From the NCBI GenBank assembly GCA_010405405.1, contig MU004231.1:675736-739735 (forward strand): a stretch of 64,000 bases of DNA, written 5' to 3'. Numbering within the stretch: the stretch's first letter is position 1; every line of letters begins with the position of its first letter. Position numbers and translations under genes: made by a program. The notes under the pieces were generated by a model. It was not told the origin of the DNA. It did no database searches and saw only the letters and a program-made list of their open reading frames with translations. Origin of the DNA: Microthyrium microscopicum (Eukaryota > Ascomycota > Dothideomycetes > Microthyriales > Microthyriaceae). Positions 42,174 to 64,000 of this stretch are shown here, one piece after another.

Positions 42174-42327
42174 GGTGAGATGGCCGAGCGGTCCAAGGCG
42201 CTAGGTAAGAAACGCACTAGATATTACTGTTTTCAACAGGGCACTAACTAACTCAGGTTAAGGTTCAGGTCTCTCCTCAACTTCCTAGTCATTTCATTAT
42301 GGCGTGGGTTCGAATCCCACTCTCGTA
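42174..42327 (+). tRNA. tRNA-Leu(AAG), interrupted twice and probably decayed
   Basis: A-box (TGGCCGAGCGG at 42181-42191) and B-box (GGTTCGAATCC, 42307-42317) are perfect. The T arm pairs fully (GTGGG/CCCAC), the anticodon stem is CTAGG (42201-42205) with CCTAG (42284-42288), and the short variable arm pairs CAT with ATG. Between the two stem strands lie 78 nt. Removing the 52-nt block 42205-42256 restores a standard loop TTAAGG with U33 and anticodon AAG. A remaining 19-nt block (42264-42282) then sits exactly after position 37, where tRNA introns belong, and AGGTT can pair with AACTT across it. The mature length would be 83 nt, right for tRNA-Leu. The acceptor stem is weak: four Watson-Crick pairs, two G-U and a G-A mismatch, so the copy may be inactive. 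Confidence 0.75.
42205..42256 (+). other. 52-nt spliceosomal-intron-like insertion inside the tRNA-Leu anticodon arm
   Basis: The block begins GTAAGA, contains overlapping CTAACTAAC branch-like motifs at 42244-42252, and ends CTCAG, followed by GT. Its length matches the protein-gene introns of this window (mostly 46-60 nt). The insertion point reads AG|GT, the preferred proto-splice site, and AGGT is present at both borders. Whether it is ever removed is unknown; Pol III transcripts are not normal spliceosome substrates. Confidence 0.6.
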
Positions 42328-42908
42328 AGCATTCTCCTGACTCTCATCAAGTATTTCACTAACAAATTAGATCATTCTTCTCATAGAAACTTCTTTTTTT
42401 GTTTTCCGAGCTACTGGTAGAGTAGGTACGGGCTTTTCGTGCTAATATTCATTGTCAATATAAAGTCTTTTTTTACTTTAATTCACAACGTAACAGTTAG
42501 TTAGTGAATACTGTAGCTATGAGTACTAGCTGTGAAGCTGTGTTCTGCTTTGTTCAGGGCCAACTTAAGAGAGCCAGGACTAGCACCTCGGAATTTTGAG
42601 AGGTTAGTCACCATCTTAGACGTACTAATTTGCATTATTATTAAAGCATAGAATATAACTCAGTTTGATGAATTGCTTGATACAATAATGTCCCGCATTT
42701 GCATTGAGTGCTAGATGCCAAAGTAGCAATTACTAAAGAGCTCTTGTTTATTTAGACCCTAAACTGTACAAGCTCAACTCCCTTTTACCTTCTCTCGACG
42801 CTGTCCCTTTTCACCTTCTCTATACTCTTCAGATCATCCACTCTACACTACACTCACAAACAGCTTGAATACTAGAGCATAGTGGAAAGTTAGCTCCGTC
42901 ATTTCCTC
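42328..42908. other. Intergenic: MYND gene upstream region
   Basis: This is 581 nt and AT-rich. Pyrimidine-rich sequence (42770-42850) precedes the MYND gene start. No other feature is supported. Confidence 0.5.
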
Positions 42909-43682
42909 ATGCCGCCAACAAATCCATCTAGCGACGCGCAACCAGCGCCTTCAAACACAGCACCAGAGACGAAACCGTGCGCCATATGTCAAGCACCGGA
43001 CGCTCGCCGCTGCGCCAAATGCTTGAGCGCGTGGTATTGCTCCAAAGAGTGCCAAACTACGGATTGGAAAAATGGCCATAAGCAGGCATGTAACAAGGAC
43101 AATAAGCCATCCACCGACAAGAAACAAAAGCCAGCGCGCCCACCACCAAAAGGATTATCGCAGCATATCGACAAGCCATTTACACGCTTAGAACACAAAA
43201 CCTTCCTTCATGATCTTCCCGAGAAGGACGTGTACACTCTCTTACTCGATTCCTACCGCATGCGCCAGGAGGACGAGTATAAGTTCGGCGGTGATGCCGA
43301 CGTTGACAGCATCTATGGCGGAGCGCCTCATTCTCTCAAGCCATTCCGCCGCTTCCTTCGTCGGGCGGAAAAGAAATCTGGCATTCTTCCTGCTTGGTGG
43401 GATCAGACGAAGCAAGAGGCCTGTGTTGCGCAAGGTATGGGCGGAGATGAGTGGTCAGATCTTTCTTGCTGTGTTGAGAAGCACGACATTGTTGAGCATT
43501 ACGATGATCCGCAAATGCCGATGAAGCTTCGAATGCTCGCGGAAACTTTCTGCGGGGTTGGACCTTGGGGAACAAGCGGTAAGGGTATGAGACAGATGAT
43601 GATGGCAGCTGAAGGAAATTCGAATACGAGCACGATGAATTTCGATATGAGTAACCTGCAGGTAAGCATTCCAAGAACCTAG
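42909..43682 (+). CDS. MYND zinc-finger protein, N-terminal finger
   Basis: The single open frame gives 257 residues. A complete MYND finger lies at 24-61, with ligands Cys24, Cys27, Cys35, Cys38, Cys44, Cys48, His57 and Cys61 (CAKCLSAWYCSKECQTTDW in the middle). A Lys/Pro-rich linker follows, then a roughly 150-residue region (EKDVYTLLLDSYRMRQEDEY, LKPFRRFLRRAEKKSGILPAWW) that recurs in fungal MYND proteins of unknown function. MYND fingers bind proline-rich partner motifs rather than DNA. The 3' end is uncertain: a GTAAGC donor at 43662 and an acceptor at 43768 would replace the last residues with 46 others (ending at 43909). The decayed locus at 44.4 kb is its relative. Confidence 0.85.
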   Translation: MPPTNPSSDAQPAPSNTAPETKPCAICQAPDARRCAKCLSAWYCSKECQTTDWKNGHKQACNKDNKPSTDKKQKPARPPPKGLSQHIDKPFTRLEHKTFLHDLPEKDVYTLLLDSYRMRQEDEYKFGGDADVDSIYGGAPHSLKPFRRFLRRAEKKSGILPAWWDQTKQEACVAQGMGGDEWSDLSCCVEKHDIVEHYDDPQMPMKLRMLAETFCGVGPWGTSGKGMRQMMMAAEGNSNTSTMNFDMSNLQVSIPRT

Positions 43683-44412
43683 TATTGCGTTAAGAAAAAG
43701 CTTCGCTGCGCTGCCATGACGCTCGAAGATAATCATTGCATCATCTGGAAGAATAGGTTGACTGACAGTTAACAGCTTTGATACATTACTTCTACTGTGG
43801 AAGCGATTCTGTCAACGCCATGGAAAGGGCTGGTATCTATAATTCATACCCGACTATGCAGGGCAATGCTGTACTCATAGACTATGGCATGGTTCTCCAA
43901 ACTTTATAGCAGCTTCAGGGCGGATATCAATCGCCGCCGAGATGGACGGAAGGACTCCGAGTAGACGCTATAAAAAGTGGTAATTTAAGGTTTGCTTGTA
44001 TCTTTCTCTTCGTCTATTTGCACAAAGTGGTTCCATTGTCACCATCACTCTGCAAGATCAGAAACCCAGCGGCATACTCCAGGAGATACTGTATCAATTC
44101 TGTAACATACATTGGGCAAAATCAATGGGATCTCCCTCAGCTTTGCTAGGTCCCACTAGCTACGTTGGTAAAGAATGATCTTTACAAGTTACAATGAAGG
44201 ACATTGCAGGTCAGGTCATATCGTGCCTTCCTTTTCCAGTCTTGGTGTCTCGTGCCTCCCCTTTGACTCTTGAGAATACGCTGCCTCCAATTTTGCAATG
44301 CCTTGACACCACCACTTAGAGACCGGCTGTCTTCTCTCTGGTTTTCCGTCTTAGTTTCTCAAGCCCTCTCTCCTTCAAATCCCCTCCTCAACCCTCATTA
44401 GAAGATGTCATC
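43683..44412. other. Intergenic, with a possible terminal exon of the MYND gene
   Basis: An open stretch at 43769-43909, preceded by a TTGACTGACAG acceptor, could be the last exon of the gene ending at 43682; it encodes ALIHYFYCGSDSVNAMERAG among other residues. The rest, including a pyrimidine-rich leader-like segment at 44220-44410, has no supported gene. Confidence 0.4.
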
Positions 44413-45430
44413 ATGGAGCACTCGGATTCAGTCAAGGCCACACTGGAATCTTCGGAGCAGCCAACTGCTAGCCCCAAACCCCCAAAATGCGTAGTCTGCA
44501 ACAAAAGTGCCTCTCATCGCTGTGCCAAGTGTCACGCTGCATACTGTCCAAGGACTGTCAGATCAAAGATTGGAAGAGCGGCCACAAAATGGATTGCAAG
44601 CAGAACTCCAGCGGATCCGATAGCTCTGACAGCACATCATCCACTCCACCAGCTACGAAGTCCCCCAGTGCACCTCCTAGTCAGAATCGTCCTACAGGTA
44701 TCACGTCTCCCAGCGTAGTTTCCGACAAGAAATCGAGCAGGCCAGAGAAACTTGACAGCAAATCATCTGAGCCACCACCAACAAAGCCTCCCACCGCAGC
44801 TGCTGGCAAGAAAGATCCTGCGAAAATAACGGAACAATCTCGTGGCCGCATGCAAGCTACCTCGATCGGAACAGATGCCACTCAGCAAGTCCAATATGAG
44901 ATTTGCAAATGTCATCGTCACTCTGAATCGTGAGAAAGTGTGAGCGATGATCGCGGAGGTAATGCAAATGCTGTGCATCGCACCTGACGATACCGAGTAT
45001 CCTCGTATGCTTCTGGAGATACACAATGGAGAACGACGCTGGGTGCACAACTTCCTTGTTGAAGCCTTTCTCCTGCGCCGTCATGACAACGACACGTACA
45101 ATGAAACCACAGAGACAAACGAATGCGGCACCCGAACACGGACTAGGACTTCGTTTATGCAATTCCTCAAGCGGACAGAAGAGACTCCTCATGCCCTTCC
45201 GGTATGGTGGGACGGCACTCACCAGGCTCAAACCATCATTCTAGCTCAGAATCCCAAGTTCGACCAACCGATCTACGAGTATGTTGATAACTAGCGAGAC
45301 ACCTATCTGAAAACCCACGAAGAGCAGGGCTTGCAAGGTGGCAAGTCGATTATCATGACCCTTCGGCTGTCCACTAACTGCGTATACGGAAATGACTGTT
45401 GGGGATGGCGCGCTCGATATCTAGGAAGAC
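44413..45430 (+). pseudogene. Decayed MYND-finger gene related to the one at 42.9 kb
   Basis: It starts MEHSDSVKATLESSEQPTAS and enters a MYND finger (CVVCNKSASHRCAKCHAAYC). The frame then breaks: the expected continuation SKDCQIKDWKSGHKMDCKQ is found in the next frame, as if one T were missing at about 44549. A Ser/Pro/Lys-rich linker follows, then a stop at 44931-44933. The C-terminal domain resumes in another frame (44947-45294) with FMQFLKRTEETPHALPVWW, aligning with FRRFLRRAEKKSGILPAWW of the intact gene. DYHDPSAVH at about 45337-45363 aligns with EHYDDPQMP there, but lies beyond a further stop. At least three disruptions suggest an old tandem duplicate. A sequencing error could explain the first break alone, but not all of them. 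Confidence 0.75.
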
Positions 45431-60410: not shown

Positions 60411-61320
60411 TGAATGTTACTTGGAATTGGAATCTTGGTAGACTCTTGGATGGTATCAATTGATACATTCCTGGCTATGCCTTGTTTTCTCTTTCAATCT
60501 CGCCCGCTGAAGCTTGGAAGCACTGTATGTACTCAACACCCCTGTTTATATATCGTGGTTGTTACTTTGCGGGGCCCACCTGGGCAAGAACTCCCTCAAA
60601 ATTGGGAAAGAGCAAACAGACCAGAAAGGACCCGTCAAGCTCGACTAAAGTGAGGATTAATTTACATACAAGGTGAGCTCGTAGCGTACTACAAATGGGC
60701 GTTTTCGATATACCCGTACGCCAATCTGAGCAGCAGTCCTTCTCTTCAGATGTTGTGCACTACACTGCCCAAAATGTTAGACCATGAGTTATCTACGATC
60801 AACGAGGTGATGGACGCAGCGCACTTGCTATTCCTATTGATATAAAGTATTAGCCGCTATACTAGATAAGTAGCCTTGAATAGCACGACTTGGTACATAA
60901 CTAAAACTTATAAGAATTAAAAGGTTATTTTTGTGCTCTAATATGCATTGCGACATCGGCGTAGCATAATAATAGTAGAGCTTCATCATGATCTTGACAA
61001 TCCCTGAACAAACCACCCAATGGAGTTGTCGAATAAACATGCGGCTTGATGGGCTTTGTAATATCTATGTCGCTCTACAGTAAAGTCCCAGAGGCTGCTA
61101 AAGTAGCCGTCTAGTGGTAGCATATCATGTCCCAAACTTACAGCTTGATAACTTCGCCAGAATACGAGGCTTCTACACGGGGCAAGTTCAATCCTACCCA
61201 AACACCTCCTAGTACGTCCCACGGCGGCTGAGTTACGTTAAGGCGAGTGATACACTCCCTATGCAGCGCGCATCAGCCAATAGTCGTACAAGATGGTTTC
61301 GCGTAGTTGCATGCTCTTTG
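60411..61320. other. Gene-poor stretch
   Basis: Only short frames are present (for example 60414-60653 +). The part around 60830-60990 is AT-rich. No supported gene. Confidence 0.5.
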
Positions 61321-61374
61321 TCCGCCGAGAGGTTGTTATGCTGTATGTTCCGCCGAGGGGGTTATTATGCTGTA
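61321..61374. repeat. Imperfect tandem duplication, two units of about 28 nt
   Basis: Each unit starts TCCGCCGAG and ends TTATGCTGTAT, with a few substitutions and one indel between them. It lies inside a 168-codon open frame (61261-61767 +) that has no recognisable motif. Confidence 0.6.
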
Positions 61375-64000
61375 TCACGCAACCAGCAGGAACTGATTGC
61401 CAGAAAGAAAGAAAGAAATCAGATGATATTGGCCAATTCTTATTGGCCAAAACCTACCACTGTCGATAATGTCGTTGCGGACGGTTGCACGGAGCCTGGT
61501 GTTGTGGGTGGGAATCGGATGGATTCATGGAATCTGGACGATGTTACTGCATGCTGGATTGAGAGGATTTTCTACACATGGTGTGATTGCGTATGCATAC
61601 GCCCCGTTGCGATGTTGGGTTTTGTTGCTTCGGAAGGATTCTGGAAGCTTTTGCGCAGGTGTCAACGTGTTGTCTTCCCACGAGATGTCATTGGCGATCG
61701 CTTGGTAAATCCATCTGCAGCAAGTATTCAGAAGGAAGTTGATCGCCGCTCCGCAAGGTACCAATGATGAACTCCTATAAAGAAATGACGGACATGACGG
61801 GGGCAAGTGAAGAGAGGTTGAGTTTGGGATACGGCAGCATATTCCATTTGCCGTTGAACGCCGTGTTCAGCACACTTTGTGGCGCTATAGTAGTGACGGT
61901 ATTGGAAAGCTGTTTGCGATCCGCCTCACGATCTTGAGACTTGAGCAAGTCCGGCGCTTATATCACTCATGGGCAGTTCTAAGCGAATTTGTGCTCCCCA
62001 ACGCTGAGTGCAAAGGGAGAACGCATTCAGCAAGAGACACGAACGCGACGACATCGTGGTGTCCGCGCCTCGAAGAAAATGCTCGTTCACACCCCCCAGG
62101 CTGCGCGCTTGTTCAAATCAATCACCCACTCACATTATCCAATCCAAGCGAGGAGCTGGCACATGGTTGCTCAACGTGAAACGGCTACACATCTGAAAGG
62201 TGAAGATAAACCCGATCGCATGGTTTGATAGTTTCGGTTGTGAAATTGGATTGACAGCACTATCCCAAATCCCACGAGGTTCCTCAAGGCGCGGCCCGTT
62301 GGTACTGTTTGCTGGGATCCCACACAGCCAAGGCAGTATTGTAGGCGTGTGGTAATAATAAGCATGAGGAGAGTCAAGCATTGGTGTGAGACTGTGGCAG
62401 ATATGACCCGCTAATCTAATGTGGCCCAAGAACCCCTGAGCGAGCTGGATTTAAATCATTTGAGGCCGTGATCCATGGCCCAAGAGTGACGGTTGGAATA
62501 AAGGGCGAGGAGGGCTTGGGCTGACGTGCATCATTTCAGATTATTGGAAACGGCAGAAGCAAAAGCAAGTCAAAGACTCTGAAGCAGTTCAAGATTCAAA
62601 TGCAGGAAGCGTTTGAGAGCGGTACTGCGTCAACAAGTTCGCTTCTGCGTCAAGGAAGCGGATAATAGACGAAAGCGCGCGGTGAGCGCGAAATGTCGCT
62701 TGAAAGATTGAGTGGTGAATCCTTCTGCCGCTTTGATCCCTTTGTGCATGCAAAGGGAATGAGTTGGCCGCAATGCCCCAAATCCCTCACCGTAAACTTG
62801 TTAGATTATGCAGAATATACATGCAATCAGGGATGCACCGCAGCAAATCTGTCCTTCTGACCATGGCACAATGTCTGCGCCAACGGCGGGCGAGCTGAGG
62901 AGTCGGGCCCGTTTGACAATTGGACAGTCAATTGATTCCGCGGCAGGACTGCACCATAATTCGCGCCAGGCGGCCACGGCGGCAAGCAAGCGACACATAA
63001 AAAGAGGAAACTGGCGCCCGATTTGACTTAGTGGAGACTAGGGGCATCAAAGGCGCATGTTCAGGGAACTGTCAGACATTGACATGCTATCATTCGCTAG
63101 TTGTCTTGGACCTTTCATTCCTTCCCAGATTCCCAGTAGCGGGTCACAATGCAAGTATTCCCGACGGTCGTGTCTTCGGGGATCTTTGGAAGATGAGACG
63201 TTGTGATGGTGAATAATGGATGAACAATGTGCGAAATCACCAATATGTCTCCGCATGGCCTGCTGGGATTAAAAGGCTTGGTCGCAAACTGGGCCATATA
63301 AGTGACTCTCAACTCGCTAATGGAGTTTGTAATGGTCTGGTGAGATTTTCGAGGGAAATCATCTGAAGCCACCTTCCTTGCTCATTCCTTGCTGGTCTTC
63401 ATGAGAATCATTAGTTTGGAACTGCCTTGCCACTCACATCAATAAATCTTTATTGCTTGTCCTAGAGGCAGGGATTCGATGCATAGATTTAATCGCGTTA
63501 CCGCTCGTGCCGCTTTAATCTGCTCGATGTTGGCAATTTGATACCCTTAGATAATATCAGATGATAGATCAAGCGCGGTTTGTCGAAACAGTCCGAGCTT
63601 CAAAAGAGTTTCTAGGATAGCTTTAAGCGCTTGATTGGAGCAAATGCTTTGAGGTGCTTAATTTCTGTATCGTTTGGACCGTGAAAGCAACAGTAATCTG
63701 CAGCCTGAGGAGATTGTGCGGCACAGTAAGTCGGTCGCTTTGGTACATCCGACTCCTTCATCGTAAGCGAAACAACAGCGTGGCCGTCTTGGGGACCGCC
63801 CGGGTTACGCTGTAGAATCTTATCAAAGAGGTTAAGTTTTAACGACCTCTTCACACCATCAGCTATGGAGTTCCTTTTCAACCTCTTGAGTAGTATGAGC
63901 TTCGCGAGGATTCCGGATGAGGTACGAAGGTTATGTCCAAAGACTGCCTTGTTGTTCGTAGTGGCTGTTCGTCAATTATTACCGAAACTCAATCTGGCAT
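61375..64000. other. Gene-poor right end of the window
   Basis: There is no gene I can support in 2.6 kb. Frames of 60-170 codons occur on both strands without motifs. A frame at 63612-63881 (-, 89 codons) near the edge, with TYCAAQSPQAADYCCFHGPN, may belong to something that continues outside but has no start or join I can defend. A GAAA repeat (about 61404-61417) is the only simple repeat noted. Confidence 0.5.

Follow-up and report, generated by a model that had tools for sequence, protein, structure and literature searches.

A candidate nuclear tRNA-Leu(AAG) gene with two putative spliceosomal introns beside an ordinary tRNA intron

The window, meaning the whole 64,000-nt stretch of DNA analysed here, has a GC content of 48% and contains no N. 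Its gene content looks fungal, with a Ski2-like helicase, a phosphoribosyltransferase frame taken for an orotate phosphoribosyltransferase, an M24 peptidase and a MYND protein identified by a Pfam scan. The best solved relative of the helicase is "Antiviral helicase SKI2", a yeast protein. The host is probably a filamentous ascomycete. Two adjoining frames of the MYND zinc-finger type lie downstream of the tRNA described below, one at 42894–43682, which was scanned with Pfam, and one at about 44320–44933, which was judged by eye. Pfam also weakly links 61213–61767 to Picornavirus core protein 2A (E 7.8e-6, 26.4 bits, cut-off 26), possibly by chance.

At gathering thresholds, Rfam matches the window only once, with RF00005 at 42174–42328; at 29.2 bits this match lies barely over the gathering score of 29. 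This score refers to the raw locus and not to the spliced form, and the alignment leaves a 77-base stretch in the anticodon arm unshown. ARAGORN finds no tRNA at the locus with default settings; with introns allowed it reports one tRNA-Leu(aag), using a junction other than the one proposed here. Together, these two results bear out the initial annotation in its claim that the locus is tRNA-derived. The layout, in which both mRNA-type introns are putative, is as follows:

42174..42204, plus strand: tRNA exon a, nucleotides 1–30 (RF00005 and ARAGORN both start at 42174)
42205..42256, plus strand: mRNA-type intron 1, 52 nt, between nucleotides 30 and 31 (intron score 18.3 bits)
42257..42263, plus strand: tRNA exon b, nucleotides 31–37, G + TTAAGG, anticodon AAG (ARAGORN with block 1 removed)
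42264..42282, plus strand: ordinary tRNA intron, 19 nt, at 37/38 (ARAGORN)
42283..42324, plus strand: tRNA exon c, nucleotides 38–69 (RF00005, ARAGORN)
42325..42370, plus strand: mRNA-type intron 2, 46 nt, between nucleotides 69 and 70 (intron score 20.0 bits, strict scan)
42340..42349, plus strand: ACTCTCATCA, copy of the expected mature 3' end, inside intron 2 (matches of this length in 0.6% of 5,000 shuffles)
42371..42374, plus strand: tRNA exon d, nucleotides 70–73, ATCA (finishes the acceptor stem and adds A73; 7/7 pairs, one G-U)
42394..42400, plus strand: T7, candidate Pol III terminator (T-run list)

Exon a holds the 5' acceptor strand GGTGAGA, the D arm, the A box at about 42181–42191 and the first 4 nt of the anticodon stem, while exon c holds the 3' anticodon strand CCTAG, the variable arm, the T arm with the B box at 42307–42317, and TCTC. 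The A and B boxes were read by eye and assigned by their consensus. With the T-run included, the candidate features of a Pol III gene are thus all present in the sequence. If the second block is an intron, the gene on that reading reaches 42374, and the T7 run starts 19 nt past the end of the tRNA. A TTTT within intron 1, at 42230, could stop part of the Pol III transcripts. Position 37/38, where ordinary tRNA introns lie, is occupied by the 19-nt block alone, and the A at position -3 of this intron can pair with U32, as read from the sequence. In contrast, the 52-nt block at 30/31 and the 46-nt block at 69/70 do not fit an ordinary tRNA intron. A product joined at 42204/42257, 42263/42283 and 42324/42371 is expected to contain CTAGGTTAAGG and CTCTCATCA.

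The first block begins with the donor GTAAGA, carries CACTAAC and ends in CTCAG. Its branch site CTAAC places the branch A at 42247, 9 nt before the end, and the acceptor TCAG is the first AG past the branch site. The undeleted locus had been said to lack U33 and to be unable to fold. The first half of this statement holds in the standard register (nucleotide 26 = G42200, stem CTAGG/CCTAG), where no solution with U33 exists; the second does not, as ARAGORN obtains a fold of the raw sequence by shifting the register (stem GCTAG/CTAGT, loop GTAAGA), with nucleotide 26 lost and one 73-nt intron remaining. Single deletions starting at most 12 nt from nucleotide 27 and up to 85 nt long were scanned in both registers for a Leu anticodon, U33, a purine at 37 and five stem pairs. 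Of the 102 solutions, 6 fall in the standard register, and the other 96 use the shifted register without nucleotide 26. Two of the six have GT-AG borders, and only the 52-nt deletion 42205–42256 ends in YAG and keeps AAG; the other, 42205–42262, ends in TAAG and yields the anticodon CAG. In the shifted register the sole GT-AG deletion is the same 52-nt block. Its removal restores a standard CTAGG/TTAAGG anticodon arm with anticodon AAG and leaves a 19-nt remainder exactly at 37/38, just as the initial annotation had proposed and as ARAGORN also finds.

The AG|GT proto-splice site proposed for the insert is the repeat AGGT, and this repeat allows five equivalent deletion registers, one of which is GT-AG. 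A short resemblance of intron 1 to its own exon (CGCACTAG versus CGCTAG) was dropped, the longest exact match to the spliced junction being 4 nt, because every shuffle reaches a match of that length.

The shifted register corresponds to another reading, a single ordinary 73-nt tRNA intron at 37/38 with no spliceosomal part. This is what ARAGORN finds on the raw sequence, it needs no deletion, and the C at intron position -3 could pair with G32, as read from the sequence. However, the mature tRNA would then lack nucleotide 26 and carry G32 and A37, and it scores 30.3 bits against 36.7 bits for the spliced form in the profile described below. It would also reduce the TTAAGG loop, the 19-nt remainder and the signature of an intron to coincidence, and we regard a single 73-nt intron as very unlikely.

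The second block shows the same architecture, with the donor GTAAGC, CACTAAC and the end AATTAG. The branch site CTAAC has its branch A at 42362, 8 nt before the end, and the acceptor TTAG is again the first AG past the branch site. A competing AG at 42386, 24 nt past the branch, scores 21.3 against 20.0 for the end at 42370 when the distance term is left out. The block starts within the 3' acceptor strand, after TCTC, and removing 42325–42370 joins TCTC to ATCA, giving TCTCATC and A73. The raw acceptor stem has four Watson-Crick pairs, two G-U pairs and a G1-A72 mismatch (6/7 pairs counting G-U); after removal of the block, GGTGAGA finds six Watson-Crick pairs and one G-U, that is 7/7. The second block accounts for the weak acceptor stem, which had been taken as a hint of decay of the copy. 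Decay is not needed, since the place of the defect is that of a second mRNA-type intron, and ARAGORN pairs all stems of the spliced form. Repair of the acceptor by itself is cheap, because the raw stem is already 6/7 and many deletions reach 7/7 when G-U is allowed.

Within the second block, ACTCTCATCA at 42340–42349 matches the expected 3' end of the tRNA exactly over 10 nt, and the plus strand of the window has this 10-mer at just one other place. The fold predicted for the 201-nt form before splicing has its acceptor stem closed by the copy, which may be a decoy or a remnant of the way in which intron 2 arose. Alternatively, intron 1 may be the only mRNA-type intron and ACTCTCATCA the true end of the tRNA, the 3' part having been broken by a 21-nt insertion or local duplication in which ACTCTC is repeated. 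The 10-nt copy makes such an insertion a rival to be taken seriously: a match this long arises in the small share of shuffles listed above, and removing the 21 nt likewise gives 7/7 acceptor pairs. The insertion leaves unexplained, however, why the sequence starts with GTAAGC and continues with CACTAAC, the first YAG and ATCA (13 of 1,500,000 simulations, see below), and it offers no known route for removing the 21 nt. A broken 3' end of this kind is therefore judged improbable, and a second intron is retained as the preferred reading of the block.

Spliced at all three junctions, the locus is drawn by ARAGORN as a complete 84-nt class II tRNA-Leu(AAG) with an acceptor stem of 7/7 and an anticodon stem of 5/5 pairs, every stem being paired. 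Material for comparison came from searches for related sequences, in which pattern scans of viral contigs returned 0 fungal relatives and a protein search with the phosphoribosyltransferase frame gave 19 pattern matches, 0 of them confirmed. Two pattern scans of genome contigs gave 0 and 1 match, the one (L001, NZVC01000054.1) being filed as a Maritimibacter MAG and carrying a eukaryote-type tRNA array, not a fungal orthologue. The 8-kb locus of L001 contains 45 tRNA genes according to ARAGORN, several with the eukaryote-type anticodons AAG, AGG, AGT and AAT, and probably represents eukaryotic contamination, or else a large virus, that was binned with a bacterium.

A profile built from eight Leu/Ser tRNAs of L001 was used to score nine forms of the locus. 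The spliced form scores best of the nine, and a plain 71-nt deletion, which keeps the standard register without U33, reaches 33.5 bits, 3.2 below it. Removal of intron 2 is not rewarded (32.9 bits before, 32.8 after); the matches cover only part of the acceptor. Aligned with the two Leu(AAG) tRNAs of L001, the spliced product shows no gap across the anticodon arm. Its predicted minimum-energy fold (-31.2 kcal/mol versus -26.8 for the cloverleaf) is not the cloverleaf, keeping the acceptor, variable and T arms and losing the D and anticodon arms. Among the Leu tRNAs of L001, minimum-energy folding gives the exact cloverleaf for 0/4 and four arms with a shifted D arm for 2/4. Such folding is a weak test, but one that does not speak in favour of the spliced cloverleaf.

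Both blocks were compared with 22 probable mRNA introns of the window, hand-picked from 41 candidate rows (one per junction, <60 nt); this reference set rests on open reading frames and not on RNA, and some members may be wrong. The reference introns measure 46–59 nt with a median of 50, in agreement with the earlier remark that the 52-nt insert has the length of nearby mRNA introns. Their branch distance is 9–12 nt in 21 of 22 cases and 21 nt in one, as compared with 9 and 8 nt in the tRNA, the latter falling just outside the main range. Leave-one-out scores of the reference set span 14.5–24.1 bits and thus bracket both blocks. The donor GTAAGT is found in half of the set (11/22), while the tRNA blocks have GTAAGA and GTAAGC. 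Both blocks accordingly show the hallmarks of U2-type introns, namely an extended donor, a branch site followed by the first YAG, and a length within the host range (52 and 46 nt).

The strict pattern GTAAG..CTAAC..YAG occurs at seven donors in the window (six plus, one minus), two of which lie in this tRNA, against a mean of 0.25 per strand in 20 first-order Markov sequences. For GTAAG..CACTAAC..AG, a pattern chosen afterwards, the two tRNA blocks are the sole matches; shuffles contain 0.09 on average, and at least two in 1 of 100. The weaker of the two block scores, taken as the matrix threshold, is passed by 26 donors on the plus and 14 on the minus strand, the two tRNA blocks included. As about 6 (5.8) chance donors are expected per 64-kb strand under the Markov model, the score alone is not decisive, and the exact position is. 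Composition shuffles reach the score of block 1 in 3 of 200,000 cases, with all five equivalent registers allowed, and that of block 2 in 0 of 200,000.

Position was addressed by replacing each insert with random DNA of local composition (local-Markov simulations), with thresholds set after the blocks had been seen. An equally good intron repairing the anticodon arm (stem, U33, purine 37) arose in 62 of 1,500,000 simulations, or in 7 of 1,500,000 when a Leu anticodon was also required, and one repairing the acceptor with A73 in 13 of 1,500,000. If the two are independent, the probability of both arising by chance lies far under one in a million, even in a genome with hundreds of tRNA genes. 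Chance alone is rejected by the shuffles and simulations together. The locus departs from tRNA structure at two points, and both departures start exactly at GTAAG and end at the first YAG past CACTAAC. The claim of a spliceosomal-type intron in tRNA-Leu(AAG) beside a normal tRNA intron hence draws support from the anatomy and from the chance controls.

Aligned with each other, introns 1 and 2 show no likeness beyond their shared signals, as 21.6% of 1,000 shuffles align as well. They therefore probably represent separate gains during which the exons stayed intact. Neither block has another copy in the 64-kb window, and the reading as introner copies is rejected for this window. A coding-exon reading was likewise rejected, the open runs across the middle exon after splicing being 8–47 aa.

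A nuclear tRNA gene with several introns at unusual positions has a precedent in the red alga Cyanidioschyzon merolae, in which, according to the available parts of the sources, such introns are of the bulge-helix-bulge kind (PMC9602550, PMC3978253). By analogy, both blocks could be tRNA introns of an atypical kind, excised at such motifs by the tRNA endonuclease. In contrast to the algal introns as described there, neither block has a strict motif, defined as a four-pair central helix between two 3-nt bulges: intron 1 forms 3/4 pairs in its best register and intron 2 forms 1/4, and strict bulge-helix-bulge introns were rejected. The test separates poorly, since the ordinary 19-nt intron gives 2 and 3 of 4 pairs. 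The spliceosomal signals GTAAG, CTAAC and YAG are not predicted by endonuclease cleavage, which as an explanation for both blocks is the most improbable of those considered. The nucleomorph tRNAs of Guillardia theta also have unusual ectopic introns, many without a defined bulge-helix-bulge motif; they are set apart from the present locus by their description, which in the available text mentions no spliceosomal signals (PMC3978253).

A closer likeness is offered by the U6 snRNA gene of fission yeast, which is made by Pol III and carries an mRNA-type intron, as far as the available part of the source describes it (PMC10484740). As in the tRNA, a short spliceosomal intron lies in a non-coding RNA made by Pol III, and the U6 case shows splicing of a Pol III transcript to be possible (PMC10484740). 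Unlike U6, the present gene combines two mRNA-type introns with a tRNA-type intron. Moreover, U6 is itself part of the spliceosome, and its intron, thought to stem from reverse splicing near the catalytic bases, is explicable by closeness to the catalytic centre, a link that tRNA does not have. In fungi, the genes for 18S rRNA, likewise a structural RNA, have reportedly also been seen with a spliceosomal-type intron. Unlike tRNA, rRNA is a product of Pol I. The open-licence papers searched yielded no report of a spliceosomal intron in a tRNA gene, and the available parts of PMC12730881, PMC11782384, PMC6461891, PMC12621601 and PMC4494063 contain none.

Taken together, the locus is probably a nuclear tRNA-Leu(AAG) gene of a fungus that contains, besides a 19-nt tRNA intron at 37/38, two spliceosomal introns of the U2 type, one of 52 nt at 30/31 and one of 46 nt at 69/70. 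On balance, we favour a functional tRNA whose Pol III transcript, without a cap or Pol II tail, would need the spliceosome twice and the tRNA-splicing endonuclease afterwards. The mRNA-type introns may also be real yet reside in a redundant tRNA copy which is no longer made or matured and whose exons are intact because the loss is recent. Such a pseudogene is suggested by the TTTT inside intron 1, by the lack of a clear upstream promoter element by eye, by the raw RF00005 score close to its threshold and by the minimum-energy fold. On the other hand, all stems pair once two mutually unlike introns are removed, and the A and B boxes are preserved, as is a T-run at a sensible distance. Separate intron gains with intact exons favour a working gene, and on this reading of the sequence we consider a pseudogene unlikely.

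For a working gene, a processing order can be proposed. RNA polymerase III would use the A and B boxes as an internal promoter and transcribe up to the T7 run, and the spliceosome would take out both mRNA-type introns in the nucleus, as for the fission yeast U6 precursor. Because intron 1 interrupts the anticodon stem and intron 2 the acceptor stem, both introns should be gone by the time the tRNA endonuclease and the 3' enzymes come into play, and neither stem would form until both are out. The tRNA-splicing endonuclease would then remove the 19-nt intron, with end-trimming and CCA addition following. We infer transcription and splicing from the layout, and the order, with the mRNA-type introns out first, from known tRNA processing.

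If this interpretation is true, the spliceosome can act on a short transcript of Pol III that has yet to fold as a tRNA and to have its ends processed, and can do so across short exons (a first exon of 31 nt plus the leader and a middle one of 68 nt including the tRNA intron). Intron gain would then extend to tRNA genes, and the making of one tRNA may need two different splicing machines. Since default ARAGORN finds nothing here and the intron-allowed search gives another junction, gene finders could also miss or mis-read such tRNAs. On the minus strand, 42285–42325 gives a match to the plastid 3' UTR family RF04351 below threshold (27.5 bits versus 68). The matched stretch runs antisense to the T arm of the tRNA, which suggests that the RF04351 model may contain a tRNA end.
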